Below, piece after piece: positions 401 through 41,914 of a stretch of DNA of 43,163 bases (its first letter is position 1; the number at the start of each line of letters is the position of its first letter). The stretch comes from Candidatus Nomurabacteria bacterium (GTDB taxonomy: Bacteria > Patescibacteriota > Saccharimonadia > Saccharimonadales > Saccharimonadaceae): the NCBI GenBank assembly GCA_031262695.1, contig JAISHF010000005.1, forward strand, positions 1-43,163. Reading direction: 5' to 3'. A program made the position numbers and the translations under genes. The notes under the pieces were generated by a model, which made no database searches, was not told the DNA's origin, and saw only the letters and a program-made list of their open reading frames with translations.

Positions 401-1396
401 TTAAATATTGAAGAGTTTTTGGGCATTTTTGGTGGTGATTTGGGCGATTTCTTGGGCTGTAAGTTGGCGGTCGGCGGCGATTTTCTCGGCAATAAGGGGC
501 AAAAAACTAGATTTGTTGCGGTCTTTGCGGTGAGGTGTAGGGGTGAGGTAGGGGGCGTCGGTTTCTAGGAGGAGGCGGTCTAGGGGGATGCTATTTAGGA
601 TGCTTTGGAGCTCAGGGTCTTTGTTGAAGGTATAGATGCCATTGACGCCGATATAAAAACCTAATTCTAGGGCTTTATCAAGGCTTGCTTGGCTGTCGGT
701 AAAGCTATGACAAACGCCGCGAATTTGTGAAAACTCGGCTAAAATGGCAAAAGCGTCGGCAAATACGCTAGATATAGCGTCTGTTTTGTTTGGCACGCTA
801 TATATAGCGTGTTCAGTGGTGCCACGAATATGAAGCGAAACAGGGAGATTTAGCTCAGCCGCCAAGGCAAGTTGGGCGCGAAAAAGGGCTTTTTGGGCGG
901 CGATTTCGGCTTGGGAGGGATTTTTGTGGTAATCTAACCCGATTTCGCCGATAGCCTTGACTTTTTGCGGGTTTGATTGGATAATCTGGCGTAACTTTGC
1001 AACTTGGCGACTAGGGTTGCAGAGACCGCTCACGCCGCCTACAGCGGCTGCGCTTCCGTTTAGTCCCTGCAACCCTAGTCGCACAAGTTGCTCTACGGCG
1101 ACTGTGCTTCCGTCTAGTTGCTGCGGCATAGGCTCTGAAACTATCGGGGATGTAGCAAACTCGGGATAGATGCCGAGAATAGCACAAGCGTTGTCGTGCT
1201 GGTTGGCGAGAGCGAGTACTTGCTCGGCACTATCTTCGTCGCCATCGTAGAGGGGATTTTTTAGCCCAACAAAAGTGCTAACAAGGAGCATCGTGCCGTC
1301 AAAATCGGGGTCGTAAATGTGGGTGTGGGTATCGGTGAAGCTGGAAGTATCGGTTAGGTTGGCGGCGCCAGTTGGGCTATTCGATATGGTGGTCAT
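401..1396 (-). CDS. tatD: TatD-family metal-dependent deoxyribonuclease/hydrolase with two inserts
   Basis: TatD proteins are TIM-barrel metal hydrolases with 3'-5' exonuclease activity on DNA/RNA. The metal-site motifs are visible: HTH after FTDT near the N-terminus, the Glu of IGEIGLDYH, His in SLHIRG, His in GVCHSF, and Asp in LLLETDAPYL. At 331 residues it is about 70 longer than usual. The excess sits in two blocks, one before KLRQII and one after TTEHAI, and both are encoded by palindromic DNA (999-1091 and 765-811). The start ATG overlaps the metG stop (TAATG), so it is translationally coupled as the last gene of the tyrS-tgt-metG-tatD run. Confidence 0.9.
   Translation of the reverse strand: MTTISNSPTGAANLTDTSSFTDTHTHIYDPDFDGTMLLVSTFVGLKNPLYDGDEDSAEQVLALANQHDNACAILGIYPEFATSPIVSEPMPQQLDGSTVAVEQLVRLGLQGLNGSAAAVGGVSGLCNPSRQVAKLRQIIQSNPQKVKAIGEIGLDYHKNPSQAEIAAQKALFRAQLALAAELNLPVSLHIRGTTEHAIYSVPNKTDAISSVFADAFAILAEFSQIRGVCHSFTDSQASLDKALELGFYIGVNGIYTFNKDPELQSILNSIPLDRLLLETDAPYLTPTPHRKDRNKSSFLPLIAEKIAADRQLTAQEIAQITTKNAQKLFNI
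765..811. repeat. Pair of near-identical palindromes inside tatD
   Basis: A near-palindrome at 765-780 (ACGCTA..TAGCGT) is followed 30 bp later by a perfect 18-bp palindrome at 794-811 (CACGCTATA/TATAGCGTG). Together they encode a segment of about 15 residues that is absent from ordinary TatD proteins at this point. Confidence 0.75.
999..1091. repeat. Long inverted repeat inserted in frame in tatD
   Basis: The arms at 999-1022 and 1067-1091 pair over 24 bp with one bulged base (1083). The inner 16 bp, GCGACTAGGGTTGCAG and its complement, are perfect. The 44-nt loop holds a smaller hairpin (GCCGC/GCGGC). The block translates without stops as part of an approximately 45-residue insert in TatD. 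Confidence 0.9.
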
Positions 1397-2925
1397 TATG
1401 GGGTAGTGGTTTCGGGTTTCGGGAAGAGGATTTCGCCGTTATAGACGGTTTTTTCGGGCTGGAAGATGGCGAGGATTTTTTGCGAGGTCGTTGGCAAGAA
1501 TGGAGCAAGGGCAGAGGCGAGCGTGGCGACACGACTTGACCAATTTTCTAAAAGATTTCGTAATTCTGGTAGGGTGTCGTCGGATTTGGCGAGTGTCCAA
1601 GGTTTGGCGGCGTCAATTTCGGCGTTAATATCGCGAAAATGATTAAATAATTCAGTTAGAGCGTCCGAAAAATCCAGATTTTGCATAAAATGGTGGTATT
1701 TGGCAAGGCTTTTGACAATATTTGGCAAGGAATCGTCTGATTTGTCAATACTCTGCTCGTTTTGCGTGCCGATAAGCCCAGCAAAATACTTGTTGTTCAT
1801 ATTAGCAAGGCGAGAAACGAGATTGCCGAGGGTGTTGGCGAGGTCGTTATAGGCGGCGTCGTATTTAGCCCAAGTGAAGTCGCCGTCGTCGCAGGTCGGG
1901 ATATATTTAAGGAAGTAAAAGCGGAAGGCATCAGTGCCATAGCGGGCGATAACTTCGGTAGGGCTAATCACATTGCCGAGGGACTTGCTCATTTTGGTGC
2001 CGTCAACATTAACAAAGCCGTGCGTCAAAAGCAGGCGAGGTAGCGGCAAGCCAAGCCCGAGCAAGATTGCCGGCCAAGTGATAGCGTGAAAACGCAAAAT
2101 GTCCTTGCCAATAATCTGGGTGCTGGCTGGCCAATGTCCTGTCGTGAGATAGTTGGAAAGTGCATCAATCCAGACATACATGGTTTGGTCGGGGTCGTTG
2201 GGGACGGGAATGCCCCACGAAACCTGTGATTTGGGGCGAGAGATGGAGACGTCTTCGGACTTTTCAAGCAAGTTTAAGATTTCGCTAGCGCGAAAATCAG
2301 GGAGGATTTTGAGGTATTGGTCGTCGCTTGGGTCGGCGGTGCCGACGCTACGTGCGGTAGTTTCGCCATTTAGGGCGTCTAGGGTGCTTAACGCACGACC
2401 GCGTTCAATTGCGGCTTTGATTTGCGGGATAAGAGCGGTGACTTTTAAGAAGTAGTTGTCTTCGGAGATTTCTTGGAGTGGCTGGTTATGGATTGGGCAG
2501 GTGAAGTTTTTTTCGCGGGCCTCGGTTTCGGTGATGAAACTTTCGCAGCCTTCGCAATACCAGCCGTGGTAGGGCTTTTTGTAAATTAGACCGTTTTCAG
2601 CGAGTTTTAGCCAGATTTCTTGGCAGTTTTTGATGTGGTTAGGGTTGGTAGTGCGGATGAAATAGTCATATTTAGCGTCTAAATCTTGCCAAAGAGCGCG
2701 AAAAAGCGCCGAGTTTTCGTCGCAGAGTTCTTGTGGGCTGATGCCTAATGCCTTTGCTTTGCTCGCGACTTTTTGACCGTGTTCGTCGGTGCCAGTTTGC
2801 AAAAAAGTGGTTTCGCCGCGGGATTTTTGGTAGCGATTGAGCACATCAGCCAGCAAAAAGTCCAGCGCGTGACCGACATGGGGGGCGCCGTTTAAGTACG
2901 CAATCGCCGTAGTAATATATTTCAT
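1396..2925 (-). CDS. metG: Methionyl-tRNA synthetase
   Basis: Class I aminoacyl-tRNA synthetase that charges tRNA-Met. The HIGH box appears as HVGH near residue 18 and KMSKS is exact (KMSKSLGN). The Cys cluster of the connective domain (CEGC, CP) is present. The 509-residue form lacks the C-terminal tRNA-binding dimer domain found in longer MetRS. I chose the ATG at 2925 because the protein then begins with the family's usual start (MKYITTAIAYLNG) and TATAAT lies exactly 6 nt upstream, implying a leaderless mRNA. An insert of about 25-30 residues before PDFRASEI is encoded by hairpin-rich DNA (2332-2397). Confidence 0.95.
   Translation of the reverse strand: MKYITTAIAYLNGAPHVGHALDFLLADVLNRYQKSRGETTFLQTGTDEHGQKVASKAKALGISPQELCDENSALFRALWQDLDAKYDYFIRTTNPNHIKNCQEIWLKLAENGLIYKKPYHGWYCEGCESFITETEAREKNFTCPIHNQPLQEISEDNYFLKVTALIPQIKAAIERGRALSTLDALNGETTARSVGTADPSDDQYLKILPDFRASEILNLLEKSEDVSISRPKSQVSWGIPVPNDPDQTMYVWIDALSNYLTTGHWPASTQIIGKDILRFHAITWPAILLGLGLPLPRLLLTHGFVNVDGTKMSKSLGNVISPTEVIARYGTDAFRFYFLKYIPTCDDGDFTWAKYDAAYNDLANTLGNLVSRLANMNNKYFAGLIGTQNEQSIDKSDDSLPNIVKSLAKYHHFMQNLDFSDALTELFNHFRDINAEIDAAKPWTLAKSDDTLPELRNLLENWSSRVATLASALAPFLPTTSQKILAIFQPEKTVYNGEILFPKPETTTP
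2332..2397. repeat. Hairpin-rich in-frame insert in metG
   Basis: A perfect hairpin GTCGGC-GGT-GCCGAC (2332-2346) is followed by a second inverted pair, CGTGCG at 2351-2356 and CGCACG at 2392-2397. The encoded residues fall where typical MetRS goes straight from helix to the PDF motif. Confidence 0.55.
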
Positions 2926-15789: not shown

Positions 15790-15999
15790 CTATTCTTCGT
15801 CGTTGGAGCTTATCTGTTTAGAAATGCTCAGAAAGAGACGCAAGAGGTGTGCGGCCGCGCAGACGTAATCCATAACAATACAGGCAATCAGTATGTTGTC
15901 GCCTGTATAGTCATATTTTTCCCACTGGTAGCACGAGAGCAAGAACCAAACCACGGCCAAGAAAAAGCAGTCAAAGTTATTTTGAAAATCTTTTTTCAT
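15790..15999 (-). CDS. Small membrane protein, module 1 gene 1
   Basis: 69 residues: a basic start MKKDFQNNF, one TM helix (CFFLAVVWFLLSCY), a short acidic loop (EKYDYTGDN), a second hydrophobic stretch (ILIACIVMDYVCAAAHLLRLFL) and an acidic tail SNDEE. No family recognised. I chose the ATG at 15999 because AGGAGG stands 6 nt upstream. It is transcribed from the promoter/leader repeat copy at 16089-16128 and ends at the shared hairpin. Its position corresponds to the Spo0A-C gene in module 2, but the proteins are unrelated. Confidence 0.65.
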   Translation of the reverse strand: MKKDFQNNFDCFFLAVVWFLLSCYQWEKYDYTGDNILIACIVMDYVCAAAHLLRLFLSISKQISSNDEE

Positions 16000-16128
16000 A
16001 AGGGGCCTCCTAATATTCACGCCCGTAGATACCTCAAAGAGGTGCTGGGGGGGGGCTTAATTGGTGCCCCACACCAGCTTATACTTACATTATATCATAC
16101 TTGTGCTTAAAAGTCAATAGTTTCGGTG
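16000..16128 (-). promoter_or_regulatory. Promoter/leader repeat, copy A
   Basis: Minus-strand TTGACT (16117-16112), 17 nt, TATAAT (16094-16089), then a leader of about 80 nt with a stem built on GCTGG..CCAGC, a C9 tract (G9 on plus, 16047-16055), a second hairpin ACCTC-TTT-GAGGT, and AGGAGG. CACCGAA lies just upstream of the -35 (16128-16122). Confidence 0.85.
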
Positions 16129-16201: not shown

Positions 16202-16591
16202 ATGAAACTAGCAAAGCAAGGCAAGATCACGCCAAACGGCGTAGTACTTGAAACGCACGAGAATTCCACCGTTGTATTCCTAACCGAGCGTGGTTTTGAT
16301 GTAGAGCTAATCAAGCCTGTTCGCACAAAAGGTGCCAAGAACGCCGACATTATCCTTGCGGGCATCGTCTGGGAAATCAAAGGTCTGTTCGGTAGTAGCA
16401 AGCGTTCCATTGCCGATCATCTCTATAAAGCCTCTCGCCAATCACCAAACATAATCTTAGACATGCGTCACTTTGGTCTGTCAAAAAGTTTCTCAATAAA
16501 AGAAATTTCCAAACAATTCAACATCCGCCGCAAGATTAAACGAATAAAAGCAATCTTTCAAGACGGCGAAACTATTGACTTTATGCGTTAG
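16202..16591 (+). CDS. Stand-alone CdiA-C-like (BECR-fold) nuclease, module 1
   Basis: 129 residues with no signal or membrane segment. The core ADIILAGIVWEIKGLFGSSKRSIADHL..KASRQSPNIILD follows the pattern of CdiA C-terminal tRNase toxin domains also found at the ends of phage head proteins (acidic residue, then WEIK, then a Lys and a QS-N-hydrophobic-D strand). Likely catalytic candidates are Asp49, Glu58 and Lys60. No immunity gene is evident. TAAAAT stands 6 nt before ATG (leaderless). Codon use is less GCG/GGC-biased than neighbours, consistent with transfer. It is a diverged paralogue of 40766-41152. Target and role (toxin, defence, effector) are unknown. Confidence 0.7.
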   Translation: MKLAKQGKITPNGVVLETHENSTVVFLTERGFDVELIKPVRTKGAKNADIILAGIVWEIKGLFGSSKRSIADHLYKASRQSPNIILDMRHFGLSKSFSIKEISKQFNIRRKIKRIKAIFQDGETIDFMR

Positions 16592-16603
16592 CTTTGCTAT
16601 AAT
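16575..16603 (+). promoter_or_regulatory. Consensus promoter overlapping the nuclease 1 stop codon
   Basis: TTGACT, a 17-nt spacer and TATAAT, with TTGACT inside the last codons. The preceding CGAAACTATTGACTTT matches the promoter repeat family. It fires into the hairpin at 16613-16651. Confidence 0.75.
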
Positions 16604-16612
16604 AGTGTTAAC

Positions 16613-16651
16613 GAGATCGTCGCTTGCCGCGAAGCGGCAAGCCGCGGTCTC
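16613..16651 (+). terminator. Long hairpin after nuclease 1 (terminator or hairpin RNA)
   Basis: An 18-bp stem with one mismatch and two G-U pairs, loop GAA, followed by TTTT. Since the promoter start point falls around 16610, the product would be little more than this hairpin (about 45 nt). Confidence 0.75.
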
Positions 16652-16688
16652 TTTTGAGGTTAAATCGAGTATTTTGCCAAACAATTTG

Positions 16689-16823: not shown

Positions 16824-17303
16824 TTAGGTGTCGCTATATTGGAGGAATTGTTTTGTGAGGGCAAGGACTTCGTCGGGGAAGGACTTGCAGTCGTCGGGCG
16901 AGGCGGTTGGTTTGACGAAGGCGTCTTTCTTGTTCGTTGAGAAAACGCAGAGTTGGTTTATCTGAATTATTACGACTAAAAAATACATGACTGCGACAGT
17001 AAGGTCGTGCTCATAGACGGCTTTCAAGGCGCCGAAAAGGAAAGCAGTGGCAGTTATGGTAATTAGAACGGCCAGAGTGATGACAAGAGCTTTATTTAGC
17101 TTTTTCCCCTCCGCGCGCTCCCAGCAGAGCGCCTCGCATTCTTCTTGAAGCTTGACACTTGGGAATGCTTGTATAAAGTTGAAGGCATTGAAGATTGCGG
17201 TGTTTGTGGCGTTGGAGCCGTATTTTCTAAGAAGTTCCGCATAAACGGTGGTGTTAAGCTCGAAGTCTATATCAGTTTGTTTGCCGTTTATTGTAAGGGT
17301 CAT
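16824..17303 (-). CDS. Membrane protein with soluble N-domain, module 1 gene 2
   Basis: 159 residues. The N-terminal part (LTINGKQTDIDFELNTTVYAELLRKYG) looks like a small beta/alpha domain of the kind seen in phage tail-assembly chaperones, but the match is weak. Two TM helices follow (ALVITLAVLITITATAFLFGAL and LTVAVMYFLVVIIQINQLCVF), then a cytoplasmic tail. I chose the ATG at 17303 because AGGTG lies 6 nt upstream. Expressed from promoter/leader copy B. In module 2 the corresponding slot holds another small membrane protein. It could be the protective partner of the nuclease, which is speculation from position only. Confidence 0.6.
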   Translation of the reverse strand: MTLTINGKQTDIDFELNTTVYAELLRKYGSNATNTAIFNAFNFIQAFPSVKLQEECEALCWERAEGKKLNKALVITLAVLITITATAFLFGALKAVYEHDLTVAVMYFLVVIIQINQLCVFSTNKKDAFVKPTASPDDCKSFPDEVLALTKQFLQYSDT

Positions 17304-17439
17304 AGTATTCACCTATCTTTCAAAATTCACGCCCACTAGATACCTCAAAGAGGTGCTGGGGGGGGGCTTATTAGTTGCCCCACACCAGCTTATACTTACA
17401 TTATATCATACCATAAGCAAAAAGTCAATAGTTTTGGCA
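17304..17439 (-). promoter_or_regulatory. Promoter/leader repeat, copy B
   Basis: TTGACT (17428-17423), 17 nt, TATAAT (17405-17400), the conserved leader with GCTGG/CCAGC stem, C9 tract (17366-17358) and ACCTC-TTT-GAGGT hairpin, then AGGTG. TGCCAAA stands at 17439-17433, 4 nt upstream of the -35. Confidence 0.88.
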
Positions 17440-26904: not shown

Positions 26905-27048
26905 TGCCAAAACTATTGACTTTTAAGCACAAGTGTGATATAATGGAGATGTTATGGAGGTAATAACCGCCATACGAACCAATAACAGTTAGTTAAAACC
27001 CAGTTTAGGGTAATTTTTGCTGCCCAAAAGGGCGAAAAGGAGATTCTT
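26905..27048 (+). promoter_or_regulatory. Promoter repeat copy E with a different leader
   Basis: TGCCAAA (26905-26911), TTGACT (26916-26921), 17-nt spacer and TATAAT (26939-26944) match copies B-D almost base for base. The 100-nt leader is unrelated to theirs. It has a five-codon ORF (ATG at 26950), an AACCC..GGGTAA element, a GCCC-AAAA-GGGC hairpin, and AAGGAG before the ATG at 27049. Confidence 0.8.
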
Positions 27049-27432
27049 ATGAAAAAATTTCTGTCCTCTTTCTTTGATATCAGCACTTCTGCTTTCTGCA
27101 AACGGCATTCCCGCAAGTTCCTGCAAGCAGTTCTTCGGTCAACTGTGATCTGCTCTGCAAAAGACTTCTTTACTCTTCTCGCTTTTTACCTCCTCTGGTT
27201 CGCAGAGGGTGTTGGGCGTCTTTGCCTGCCTTTCGTTGTGCTGTTTTCGCCTGTGTTTATCTGTCTTGTCCCGTTTTCTGAATTACTTCTCGGCCTGCAA
27301 ATATTCACTCCTGCTTTTCTGATTCTCGTTCTAATTGCGGCTTTGTCGCTCACGATTTTTAACCGTAGCGGCAACGCTAATCTGAGAAAAGAATTACGTT
27401 GGCATCTCAAAAAAGAGCTTGTCATTAACTAA
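27049..27432 (+). CDS. Small membrane protein behind the shared promoter
   Basis: 127 residues: a basic N-terminus with several Cys (CKRHSRKFLQAV), two or three TM helices (FFTLLAFYLLWFAEGVG, LCLPFVVLFSPVFICLVPF, FTPAFLILVLIAALSLTIF) and a basic tail (RKELRWHLKKELVIN). No family recognised. Codon use (CTTCTC, CTCTGG) is unlike the GCG/GGC-rich neighbours, which suggests acquisition. It has the same promoter core as the two modules and ends at the same hairpin pair as module 1, so it looks like a solitary member of that set. Confidence 0.6.
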   Translation: MKKFLSSFFDISTSAFCKRHSRKFLQAVLRSTVICSAKDFFTLLAFYLLWFAEGVGRLCLPFVVLFSPVFICLVPFSELLLGLQIFTPAFLILVLIAALSLTIFNRSGNANLRKELRWHLKKELVIN

Positions 27433-40113: not shown

Positions 40114-40563
40114 TTAGGCGGATTTTGTCGCGGGCTGGATATATTTATGCTCCATCTGGATTTTATCGGCAATTGTGGCAATAAACTCGCTGTTGGTCGG
40201 TTTGTCCTTCTCAAATGAGATGGTGTAGCCGAAGACATCTTCCCAGAATGCGTGGCTGCCGCGTACATAGGACACCTCTACGGCGTGGCGAATGGCGCGC
40301 TCAACACGGCTCCCCGTGGTCTTGAACTCATTCGCGATGGTGGGATAAAGTTTTTTCGTGATTGAGTCCAATATCTCGTCGTCTTCAACGGCAAGAACGA
40401 TAGCTCGGCGAGCATAGCGGTAACCCTTAATGTGTGCAGGAATGCCGAGTTCACGGAAAATTTCGCCTACGCGGAGTTCAGTTGTCGGGTCGGGGTTCAC
40501 GGATTCAACAGTGAAGTTTGTAGTAGCGACCGCTGTAATGGTTTCAGTAGTTTTCTCAGACAT
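40114..40563 (-). CDS. Stand-alone Spo0A C-terminal DNA-binding domain protein
   Basis: 149 residues. Residues 32-140 align end to end with the Spo0A effector domain: ELGIPAHIKGYRYARRAI, DSITKKLYPTIANEF, the recognition-helix block TTGSRVERAIRHAVEV, then FGYTISF and KPTNSEFIATIADKIQMEHK. By eye roughly half the positions are identical to Bacillus subtilis Spo0A. The receiver domain is replaced by a 30-residue Thr-rich tail, so control by phosphorylation in cis is impossible. AGGAGG stands 8 nt before ATG. It is transcribed from promoter/leader copy C, which has a Spo0A-box-like TGCCGAA. No sporulation genes are in the window. Transfer from a Firmicute is plausible. Confidence 0.93.
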   Translation of the reverse strand: MSEKTTETITAVATTNFTVESVNPDPTTELRVGEIFRELGIPAHIKGYRYARRAIVLAVEDDEILDSITKKLYPTIANEFKTTGSRVERAIRHAVEVSYVRGSHAFWEDVFGYTISFEKDKPTNSEFIATIADKIQMEHKYIQPATKSA

Positions 40564-40711
40564 AAGTGGTTCCTCCTAAAAAATTTACGCACCCTGTTTA
40601 CCAAGTTCCCGATGCACAAGCAAAGGGGCTGGGGGGGGGTGATTATTTGCCCACACCCAGCTTATACTTCCATTATATCACACTTATGCCTAAAAGTCAA
40701 TAGTTTCGGCA
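40564..40711 (-). promoter_or_regulatory. Promoter/leader repeat, copy C
   Basis: TGCCGAA (40711-40705), TTGACT (40700-40695), 17-nt spacer, TATAAT (40677-40672), then a leader with CTGGGTGTGGG / C9-CCAG stem (C9 at 40639-40631). The ACCTC/GAGGT hairpin is missing. Ends in AGGAGG. Confidence 0.88.
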
Positions 40712-40728
40712 GATTTTGTGCAAAAAGC

Positions 40729-40758
40729 TTGTCTTAGTAGCGGTGGATGTGTTATATT
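40729..40758 (+). promoter_or_regulatory. Promoter of nuclease 2
   Basis: TTGTCT, 18-nt spacer, TATATT, 7 nt before ATG. It is divergent from copy C, with only 17 bp between the Spo0A-box-like site and this -35. Confidence 0.6.
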
Positions 40759-40765
40759 AAAAGGC

Positions 40766-41152
40766 ATGGATAAGATTCGCATTCCAGATGGCTACAAGCC
40801 AGAGTTGCATGAAATTGAAGTGGCGAAAATATTGGTGGGGCGTTTTGATTGTGAGATTGAGTTTTTGCGGCCATCTAATTCTTATAAAGTTTCTACGCCT
40901 GACATTGAGATGAGAGGTCAGCTTTGGGAGATTAAAAGCCCGCTTGGTTGCGCTAAGCATACTATTCAAGAGCAATTTAAGCGTTCGTCTAAACAGTCTT
41001 GCAATATTATTATAGATGGCCAGCGAAGCAAGCGGTCAGATGAGGATCTCGTAAAAGATATACAAAAAGAGATAAAATTGCATAAAACAAAACGCAGGGT
41101 GCTGTTTATTACGAAAGATAAAAAAGTGCTTGACATGGGTAAACGAGGTTGA
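40766..41152 (+). CDS. Stand-alone CdiA-C-like (BECR-fold) nuclease, module 2
   Basis: 128 residues from the ATG at 40766 (a longer frame would start inside the promoter). The core TPDIEMRGQLWEIKSPLGCAKHTIQEQFKRSSKQSCNIIID fits the CdiA C-terminal RNase pattern better than the module 1 copy. Candidate catalytic residues are Asp46, Glu55, Lys57 and Lys64. The C-terminal KRRVLFITKDKKVLDM strand closes the fold. No secretion signal or fused delivery domain. The two copies share D-I-x5-WEIK and the QS-N-I-I-x-D strand but differ elsewhere, so they are old paralogues or separate acquisitions. A consensus promoter overlaps its last codons. Confidence 0.72.
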   Translation: MDKIRIPDGYKPELHEIEVAKILVGRFDCEIEFLRPSNSYKVSTPDIEMRGQLWEIKSPLGCAKHTIQEQFKRSSKQSCNIIIDGQRSKRSDEDLVKDIQKEIKLHKTKRRVLFITKDKKVLDMGKRG

Positions 41153-41158
41153 TATAAT
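41130..41158 (+). promoter_or_regulatory. Consensus promoter overlapping the nuclease 2 stop codon
   Basis: TTGACA, exactly 17 nt, TATAAT: both boxes are perfect. TTGACA is read as codons of the nuclease. Confidence 0.85.
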
Positions 41159-41164
41159 ACAGAT

Positions 41165-41248
41165 GTAGAAAGACCAGGCAGCCCTGATTGGGCAGTCGGA
41201 GGAGTATTCTACAAAATAATACAAAAGCCTCCGTTTTGGAGGTTTTTT
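41165..41248 (+). ncRNA. Candidate small structured RNA downstream of nuclease 2
   Basis: About 84 nt from the predicted start to a terminator (CCTCC-GTTTT-GGAGG then T6, 41228-41248). TGTAGAA (41164-41170) pairs with TTCTACA (41207-41213) to close a domain that contains GAC..GTC and GCCC-TGATT-GGGC. No ORF. Not recognised as SRP, 6S, tmRNA or RNase P. Confidence 0.65.
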
Positions 41249-41327: not shown

Positions 41328-41771
41328 TTAAACCTCATAAGAAAGTATTTTTGAGTGCTTGATTTGGCCAGCTTTATTGTAGTAGACTCTCACGATAATG
41401 TTCAGGCTCTCACCTTCAGATGATTTAGTATAGAGTTCAGCGTTATCTATCCAGTAGATTGCACCATCATCTTTGGCTTCAACTTGAACGTTGTGTTGCG
41501 ACGGATGAATTATCGGCAAAAGGGTAGTCACGTTACCGATGCGTGTGGGCATTAAGGTTGTGTAGCTAGGCCGATAGCTTTTGCTGCGGATGTATGCTTG
41601 TTTTTTGACGTCTTTGTGCCGGTAGGCAAGCGCGCGGTACAATGCTTGGATTGGCATAGCGAGCAGAATGCCGACGAGTATCAGCAACAAGACGATACAG
41701 GCGAGTGTGATAACGCCAACGACACCCGCAAGGATACCGCTGTGAAAGAACATCTCGAAGAACCATGACAT
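41328..41771 (-). CDS. Membrane-anchored protein, module 2 gene 2
   Basis: 147 residues. One or two N-terminal TM segments (FFHSGILAGVVGVITLACIVLLLILVGILLAM) are followed by a basic linker (YRHKDVKKQAYIRSKSY) and a small beta-rich soluble domain (VQVEAKDDGAIYWIDNAELYT..LNIIVRVYYNKAGQIKHSKILSY). No family recognised. AAAGGAGG is 8 nt before ATG. Expressed from promoter/leader copy D. It sits in the same slot as 16824-17303 of module 1, but the two proteins show no clear similarity. Confidence 0.62.
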   Translation of the reverse strand: MSWFFEMFFHSGILAGVVGVITLACIVLLLILVGILLAMPIQALYRALAYRHKDVKKQAYIRSKSYRPSYTTLMPTRIGNVTTLLPIIHPSQHNVQVEAKDDGAIYWIDNAELYTKSSEGESLNIIVRVYYNKAGQIKHSKILSYEV

Positions 41772-41914
41772 AGTGAAATCCTCCTTTTATAAAAAGTGCA
41801 CGCCCACTTGCATAATTACCTCGTAGAGGTGCTGGGGGGGGGTGATTATTTGTCCACACCCAGCTTATATTTCCATTATATCACACTCGTGCTTAAAAGT
41901 CAATAGTTTTGGCA
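41772..41914 (-). promoter_or_regulatory. Promoter/leader repeat, copy D
   Basis: TGCCAAA (41914-41908), TTGACT (41903-41898), 17-nt spacer, TATAAT (41880-41875), a leader with GCTGGG/CCCAGC stem, C9 tract (41842-41834), ACCTC-TAC-GAGGT hairpin, GTGGGCGTG box shared with copies A and B, and AAAGGAGG. Confidence 0.88.

Follow-up and report, generated by a model that had tools for sequence, protein, structure and literature searches.

A narrowly distributed family of structured mRNA leaders in Saccharibacteria with a C9 strand proposed to pair with three partners

Four genes in the analyzed stretch of DNA (the window, 43,163 nucleotides, which is contig C2 of the 652,476-base genome G000) and at least five more genes in the same genome begin with the same folded RNA, which represents a new family of mRNA leaders with a narrow distribution within Saccharibacteria. 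We consider it reasonably probable that these leaders are cis-acting elements in which a strand of nine C residues (C9) has three partners and in which a 5′-terminal pseudoknot sets the stability or the ribosome access of the mRNA. A homopolymer that resembles a slippage site is thereby better read as three fused pairing elements. To our knowledge, regulatory RNA is hardly known in the candidate phyla radiation; the leader is a compact RNA family open to testing, offers a handle on gene control in such epibionts, and marks a small gene set including sporulation regulators in a lineage having a genome of 0.65 Mb.

Results

Leader copies in the window and their distribution

Original prediction had it that four copies of a promoter and leader repeat exist at positions 16000, 17304, 40564, and 41772. 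All four are confirmed, on the minus strand and directly before the start codons at 15999, 17303, 40563, and 41771, and all four share promoter and leader in the same order of promoter, leader, and start codon (Table 1). Exactly nine C residues are present in each copy, as had been claimed, and these four tracts are the only C9/G9 of the window, for which 0.93 would be expected.

Table 1. Positions of the leader copies, their parts, and associated features. Positions refer to the window unless a contig is named.
Feature	Position	Strand	Details
Copy 1, complete	15997..16121	(-)	promoter, leader, SD, ATG
Copy 1, promoter	16089..16117	(-)	-35 TTGACT 16112-16117, -10 TATAAT 16089-16094
Copy 1, P1	16044..16078	(-)	GCUGG 16074-16078, UGU, GGGG 16067-16070, loop, C9 16047-16055, AGC; from fold and covariation
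Copy 1, C9 tract	16047..16055	(-)	C1-3 assigned to pseudoknot, C4-7 to inner stem, C8-9 to outer stem
Copy 1, P2 hairpin	16031..16043	(-)	ACCUC-UUU-GAGGU; from fold
Copy 1, pseudoknot tail	16020..16024	(-)	GGGCG
Copy 1, SD	16006-16011	(-)	AGGAGG
Gene behind copy 1	15790-15999	(-)	69-aa membrane-like protein
Copy 2, complete	17301..17432	(-)	promoter, leader, ATG 17303 of 159-aa protein
Copy 2, leader parts	P1 17355-17389; C9 17358-17366; tail 17330-17334	(-)	tail GGGCG
Copy 3, complete	40561..40704	(-)	promoter, leader, ATG 40563 of Spo0A_C protein
Copy 3, leader parts	P1 40628-40661; C9 40631-40639; tail 40590-40594	(-)	tail GGGUG
Gene behind copy 3	40114..40563	(-)	Spo0A effector-domain protein; PF08769, E 4e-39
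Copy 4, complete	41769..41907	(-)	promoter, leader, ATG 41771 of 147-aa protein
Copy 4, leader parts	P1 41831-41864; C9 41834-41842; tail 41801-41805	(-)	tail GGGCG
Box TGCCGAAACTATTGAC	40696..40711	(-)	overlaps copy 3 -35
Box TGCCGAAACTATTGAC	41899-41914		
Box TGCCGAAACTATTGAC	17424-17439		
Box TGCCGAAACTATTGAC	26905-26920	(+)	without leader
Copies in genome G000	C2 (four); C1:4229, 70784, 71358; C3:63264; C4:82080		

A DNA search together with three covariance models yields nine leader copies in this Saccharibacteria genome. Altogether 16 covariance-model members are found in two genera (nine in G000, four in G001, and one each in G002, G003, and G063), and a pattern search for promoter plus tail adds about four divergent members in G002 and G003, which are Candidatus Saccharibacteria gut MAGs from the termite Termes hospes (PMC7024585). 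The covariance search detects no member at E <= 0.02 in some 390 further genomes of the order, its strict filters being such that weak members may be missed, and no Rfam family matches the leaders, even with E relaxed to 5. When 84,980 genomes are scanned by pattern, only the two termite-gut Saccharibacteria and chance matches in other phyla are returned; in a scan of viral contigs, one of 36 matches has a -10-like box and none has the leader. Among the top results of a literature search on Saccharibacteria with riboswitches or pseudoknots, nothing joins them.

Covarying stems P1 and P2

The leader is composed of stem P1a (GCUGG/CCAGC), a UGU bulge, an inner stem P1b (GGG/CCC), a variable hairpin P2, and a conserved tail, after which an AU-rich linker, the SD, and the gene follow. 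It is situated between a promoter and the SD of a gene with the same orientation, its first stem starting roughly 12-17 bases past the first base of the -10, i.e., a few bases after the expected start of transcription. All members except the most divergent adopt the P1 fold, followed by the second hairpin; for G002:C2:3702 no clear P1 can be drawn, and G001:C2:21063 seems to be devoid of P2.

In the covariance-aligned set both sides have changed at all five pairs of P1a, 98.7% of the cells are paired, none of 500 shuffles attains a structure score as high, and controls with slid partners score far lower. A MAFFT alignment of 14 members that was not fitted to structure leaves the picture of P1a unchanged. 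The sequence of the P2 hairpin differs in nearly every member (GCCAC-GCGA-GUGGC, CCUUUG/CAAAGG, and GCCAUUU/AAAUGGC, for example), and single-sequence folds of whole leaders are only modestly better than those of shuffles. Base pairs of the leader RNA are thus kept by compensatory changes, and the suggestion that the repeat is a riboregulator is supported as far as a structured RNA is concerned, with covariation being found in further copies, for P1a as well as for the pseudoknot described below. A helix between CCUC after P1 and GGGCGU of the tail, proposed by RNAalifold, was dropped after P2 had been found to covary.

One might argue that recent copying of a promoter and leader cassette, without any function of the RNA, accounts for the repeat, as promoter and leader are common to the copies and copies 1 and 2, as well as 3 and 4, are close neighbors. 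However, P1a and P2 have diverged with compensation, very different sequences, including those from another genus, keep architecture and tail, and the promoter occurs without the leader and vice versa. Mere duplication is disfavored by this covariation, and we regard it as extremely improbable.

The C9 tract as a strand with three partners

The invariance claimed for the tract holds for this genome, in which all eight C-tract leaders have C9 in the assembled consensus, but not for its relatives, in which the tract is C10 (G003 and G063), CCCUCCCCUCC (G001), or missing altogether (several divergent members). The best explanation of the C tract is that three C runs have merged, each with its own G-run partner. 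The last C residues would close P1a with GCUGG(G), the middle ones would close P1b with the GGG that follows UGU, and C1-3 would pair with GGGY of the tail as a loop-tail (H-type) pseudoknot, the nine residues mostly representing three for the tail plus six for the two 5′ G runs. Of the pairing in a stem near the 5′ end that was proposed originally, one part stands, as part of the tract is in the 5′ stem, whereas the first three C residues most likely pair with GGG about 20-45 nt downstream.

All members with a C tract have GGG(C/U) after P2, usually inside GGGYGHGNANNUU. In about half of them the C residues outnumber those of the two 5′ G runs by exactly three, and in none by fewer than three; the counts of the 5′ G runs trade off at constant sum, being 2+4, 3+3, or 4+2 with C9 and 3+4 with C10. 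In members devoid of C9, the tract is broken where the model places the junctions of its parts, the strand being GCCC-U-CCCC-U-CCAGC in G001:C5, CGCCC-A-CC-CCUCGU in G001:C2:34770, and CAUUUC-A-GCCC-U-CGGC in G000:C4:82080. In the latter leader, GAAAUG replaces GGGYG in the tail and a six-base helix CAUUUC/GAAAUG is preserved by compensation. In the members recognized by promoter and tail only, CGCCU or CGCUC in the loop is the partner of GGGCG, CGCCG that of UGGCG, and CGUCU that of AGGCG, and in most of them this partner adjoins the 3′ strand of the closing stem.

In a set of 20 members, the pseudoknot has 78 of its 80 core cells paired, compared with a mean of 70.7 for permuted tails (p about 4e-5), and a permutation on unique pairs with the most divergent member left out gives p 0.003; relatedness is not taken into account in these permutations, and four of the registers were assigned manually once the tail search had been done. 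The covariation of the pseudoknot represents few independent events, and an A.C mismatch is present in two members. A best-complement test of single C9-less leaders against shuffles is of low power, with only G002:C2:3702 standing out (p 0.013). Where GCCC is located beside the tract, inner stem and pseudoknot compete for the first C residues with similar support, and the two can swap partners along the C run. A symmetrical UGU/CCC internal loop was considered as the cause of the nine C residues and rejected, since G000:C1:70828 has C9 yet no UGU, and C9-less members identify the extra C residues of the tract as the pseudoknot strand.

Slippage and coding potential of the tract

Long homopolymers are mutable in general, and the lineage has many poly-G/C tracts, located in promoter spacers and at ORF starts, both of which facts would suit the earlier suspicion that C9 slips in replication and that expression is switched by changes in its length. 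However, among the 16 C/G tracts of at least eight residues in the genome, the eight in leaders are all nine long, whereas the others measure 8, 8, 9, 9, 9, 9, 10, and 12 (the two 8-long tracts being deduced from counts, and a MAG consensus giving one length per tract). Situated downstream of the -10 and upstream of the SD in an untranslated leader, the tract is outside promoter spacer and reading frame, neither of which is altered by the gain or loss of one C; the fold absorbs such a change as well, and divergent members manage without a homopolymer. Phase variation at the leaders is therefore not supported and appears highly unlikely.

The suspicion of slippage fits the organism better than the four sites of the window. 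The spacer between -35 and -10 is a classical site of transcriptional phase variation, and in G000 such spacer tracts are encountered at C3:29445 (TTGACAGCA-C9-GTGAGGTATAAT), C5:44872 (G12), and C5:135687 (G9). Poly-C/G also occupies the place of a promoter spacer at G063:C14:2324 and C15:17210, the spacer tracts of G000 and G063 being 9 to 14 long. In G002, about twenty tracts of G9-G11 are located just inside ORF starts (loci L093-L126, e.g., L105, L116, L119, and L126); the ORFs are related small-protein genes (MSHNKKSGGG..., MTS..LGGG...; ATGTCGCACAATAAAAAGTC-G11 and relatives), often out of frame as assembled, and apparently constitute a large contingency-gene family in this termite-gut Saccharibacterium. 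A run of C60 at a contig end of G063 (L143, C31:25230-25289) is probably an assembly artefact.

A leader peptide starting at GUG in GUGUGG, with CCC CCC CCA read as Pro-Pro-Pro, could stall ribosomes and cause attenuation. An ATG/GTG/TTG frame is open into the tract in 12 of 13 tract-bearing members and the Pro-Pro-Pro frame is still open in both C10 members, GTGTG offering two frames. Shuffled leaders, however, lead one to expect 10.2 open frames in 13, so that such upstream frames are no commoner than in shuffles, and for this reason the peptide was rejected. In addition, the start is too near the 5′ end for a preceding SD, a stop precedes the tract in one C9 member, the codons after the tract change freely by substitution, and the prolines are absent in divergent members. 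Attenuation by such a peptide has next to no probability in our judgment.

A separable promoter with a Spo0A-like box

The promoter TTGACT-17-TATAAT (ACTATTGACTTTT-N11-TGATATAATG) is present with no mismatch at the four copies, whereas no match is expected in shuffles; a fifth exact match at 26912 (+) is not followed by a C9 leader. The box TGCCRAAANTNTTGAC, which overlaps the -35, is similar to the Spo0A box, the 0A box being TGNCGAA. Seven such boxes exist in G000 (six at promoters and one inside a coding region) and two in G063, both of which are at most 800 bases upstream of its Spo0A_C gene, with one being the promoter of that gene. A third genome has a single such box, and the remaining fifteen of those tested have none, including G001, which is devoid of Spo0A_C. 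The box is also missing from G035, which possesses Spo0A_C.

Promoter and leader are separable, as the same promoter is encountered with no leader behind it, and the leader behind other promoters. Since the box is found with and without the leader, the repeat consists of two modules often travelling together, and the promoter was ruled out as a part of the RNA family. Several leader genes are probably under the control of the Spo0A-like protein whose gene follows copy 3; this Spo0A_C protein may bind to the box, and the promoter with TGCCRAAACTATTGAC is a candidate target. Carrying a Spo0A-box-like element across its -35, the promoter would represent a second, separable layer of control. At 26905-27049 (+) of the window, the same promoter and Spo0A-like box precede a different structured leader and a gene for a 127-aa membrane-like protein.

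Two free-standing ORFs with a CdiA_C domain (PF18451, E about 6e-10) are located at 16202-16591 (+) and 40718-41152 (+) of the window, each divergent from one leader copy. At the extreme end of each, a sigma-70-like promoter is present (16575-16660 and 41130-41232, both (+)), and the short stretch after it ends in a terminator-like hairpin, so that a small RNA might be paired with each nuclease-like gene.

Genes behind the leader

The downstream genes differ, coding for regulators, a helicase of the ResIII type, an SPFH-like protein (a label read from the sequence and not from a domain scan), a lipoprotein-like protein, and small membrane or unknown proteins, and there is no common function among them that would name a ligand. 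Spo0A effector-domain proteins are encoded behind the leader twice, TIGR02875 being matched by the window copy over the C-terminal part only, and a SigK/E-like sigma factor behind the leader is followed by SpoIIID (PF12116, E 2.7e-30). Three of the nine copies in this genome precede sporulation-type regulators, and this bacterium is not expected to sporulate. In locus L009 (G000:C1:69500-73500), SpoIIID, the SigK/E-like sigma factor, and a Spo0A effector domain form a regulator cluster (268-648, 582-1214, and 1375-1843 (-)), in which both the sigma gene and the Spo0A gene are preceded by a C9 leader. Gut phages carry spoIIID, genes for sporulation sigma factors, and spo0A in the same truncated form (PMC10294663).

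Discussion

Most likely, the leader is a 5′-terminal riboregulatory or stabilizing element of a small regulon, several promoters of which have a Spo0A-like box. In the cell, the pseudoknot would form and cap the 5′ end, and such a cap would determine how stable the mRNAs are or how readily ribosomes reach them, perhaps under the influence of a factor; a ligand or a protein might open or close the pseudoknot. The 5′-terminal position of the fold is constant in all clear members, and the distance from tail to SD ranges from about 13 to over 60 nt; as this distance varies, the pseudoknot cannot generally act by blocking the SD. A 5′-terminal pseudoknot followed by an AU-rich linker would fit best with a control of mRNA life or ribosome loading. 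RNase J is the usual bacterial 5′ to 3′ exonuclease, and since the genome encodes it (E 2.5e-133), protection of the 5′ end has a target.

If the same pseudoknot were an aptamer sensing a metabolite or an ion, the leader would be a riboswitch. An H-type pseudoknot with an inserted hairpin has a topology like that of small riboswitches, and the unpaired UGU and the bases GHGNA of the tail are conserved. On the other hand, the genes behind the leader are unrelated, its distribution is confined to one or two genera, its tail-to-SD distance is variable, and no covariance model of a known riboswitch class (preQ1, SAM, and others) matches, also at E <= 5, which leaves ligand sensing unlikely, albeit the least unlikely of the alternatives considered here. 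In preQ1-II, the 3′ strand of the pseudoknot is preceded by an inserted hairpin, and preQ1-II, preQ1-I, and SAM-II riboswitches resemble the C9 leader in that a 5′ leader contains an H-type loop-tail pseudoknot. In contrast to them, the C9 leader has no Rfam counterpart and no queuosine or SAM genes behind it, its tail is not the SD, and its C tract has three partners.

Among 5′-terminal stem-loops that stabilize mRNAs, those of the ompA and aprE type are similar in that only a few bases separate the structure from the 5′ end and unrelated genes follow, whereas the C9 leader is a pseudoknot with a conserved tail and covarying stems that is common to a gene set in one lineage. In Helicobacter pylori RepG/tlpB, a leader with a G repeat provides a homopolymer taking part in RNA pairing. 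The C9 leader is alike in having a homopolymer in a 5′ leader engaged in RNA pairing, but its C tract finds its partners in cis, and our comparison covers this cis pairing alone. Poly-G/C contingency loci of Campylobacter and Bordetella (e.g., PMC8355987 and PMC1891110) similarly have a C/G tract of 9-11 near the gene start. In contrast, the leader tract is uniform in length and lies in a structured untranslated leader, and the homopolymer is not kept in divergent members.

Combining both layers, one might speculate that a new class of riboregulator, with its pseudoknot on a three-partner C9 strand, and a Spo0A-type box jointly control a developmental regulon that has been acquired (Spo0A effector, SigK/E-like sigma factor, SpoIIID, and small membrane proteins), and that an epibiotic gut Saccharibacterium uses it to direct its own life cycle or the sporulation of its host, an idea that we consider quite unlikely as a whole.

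Long structured leaders of other architecture, with the same kind of promoter upstream, are also found at G001:C8:11317, G002:C1:20442, and G000:C1:10439, two of them sharing GAGUCGAUCCGGAUCGA, and the lineage seems to be rich in leader RNAs.
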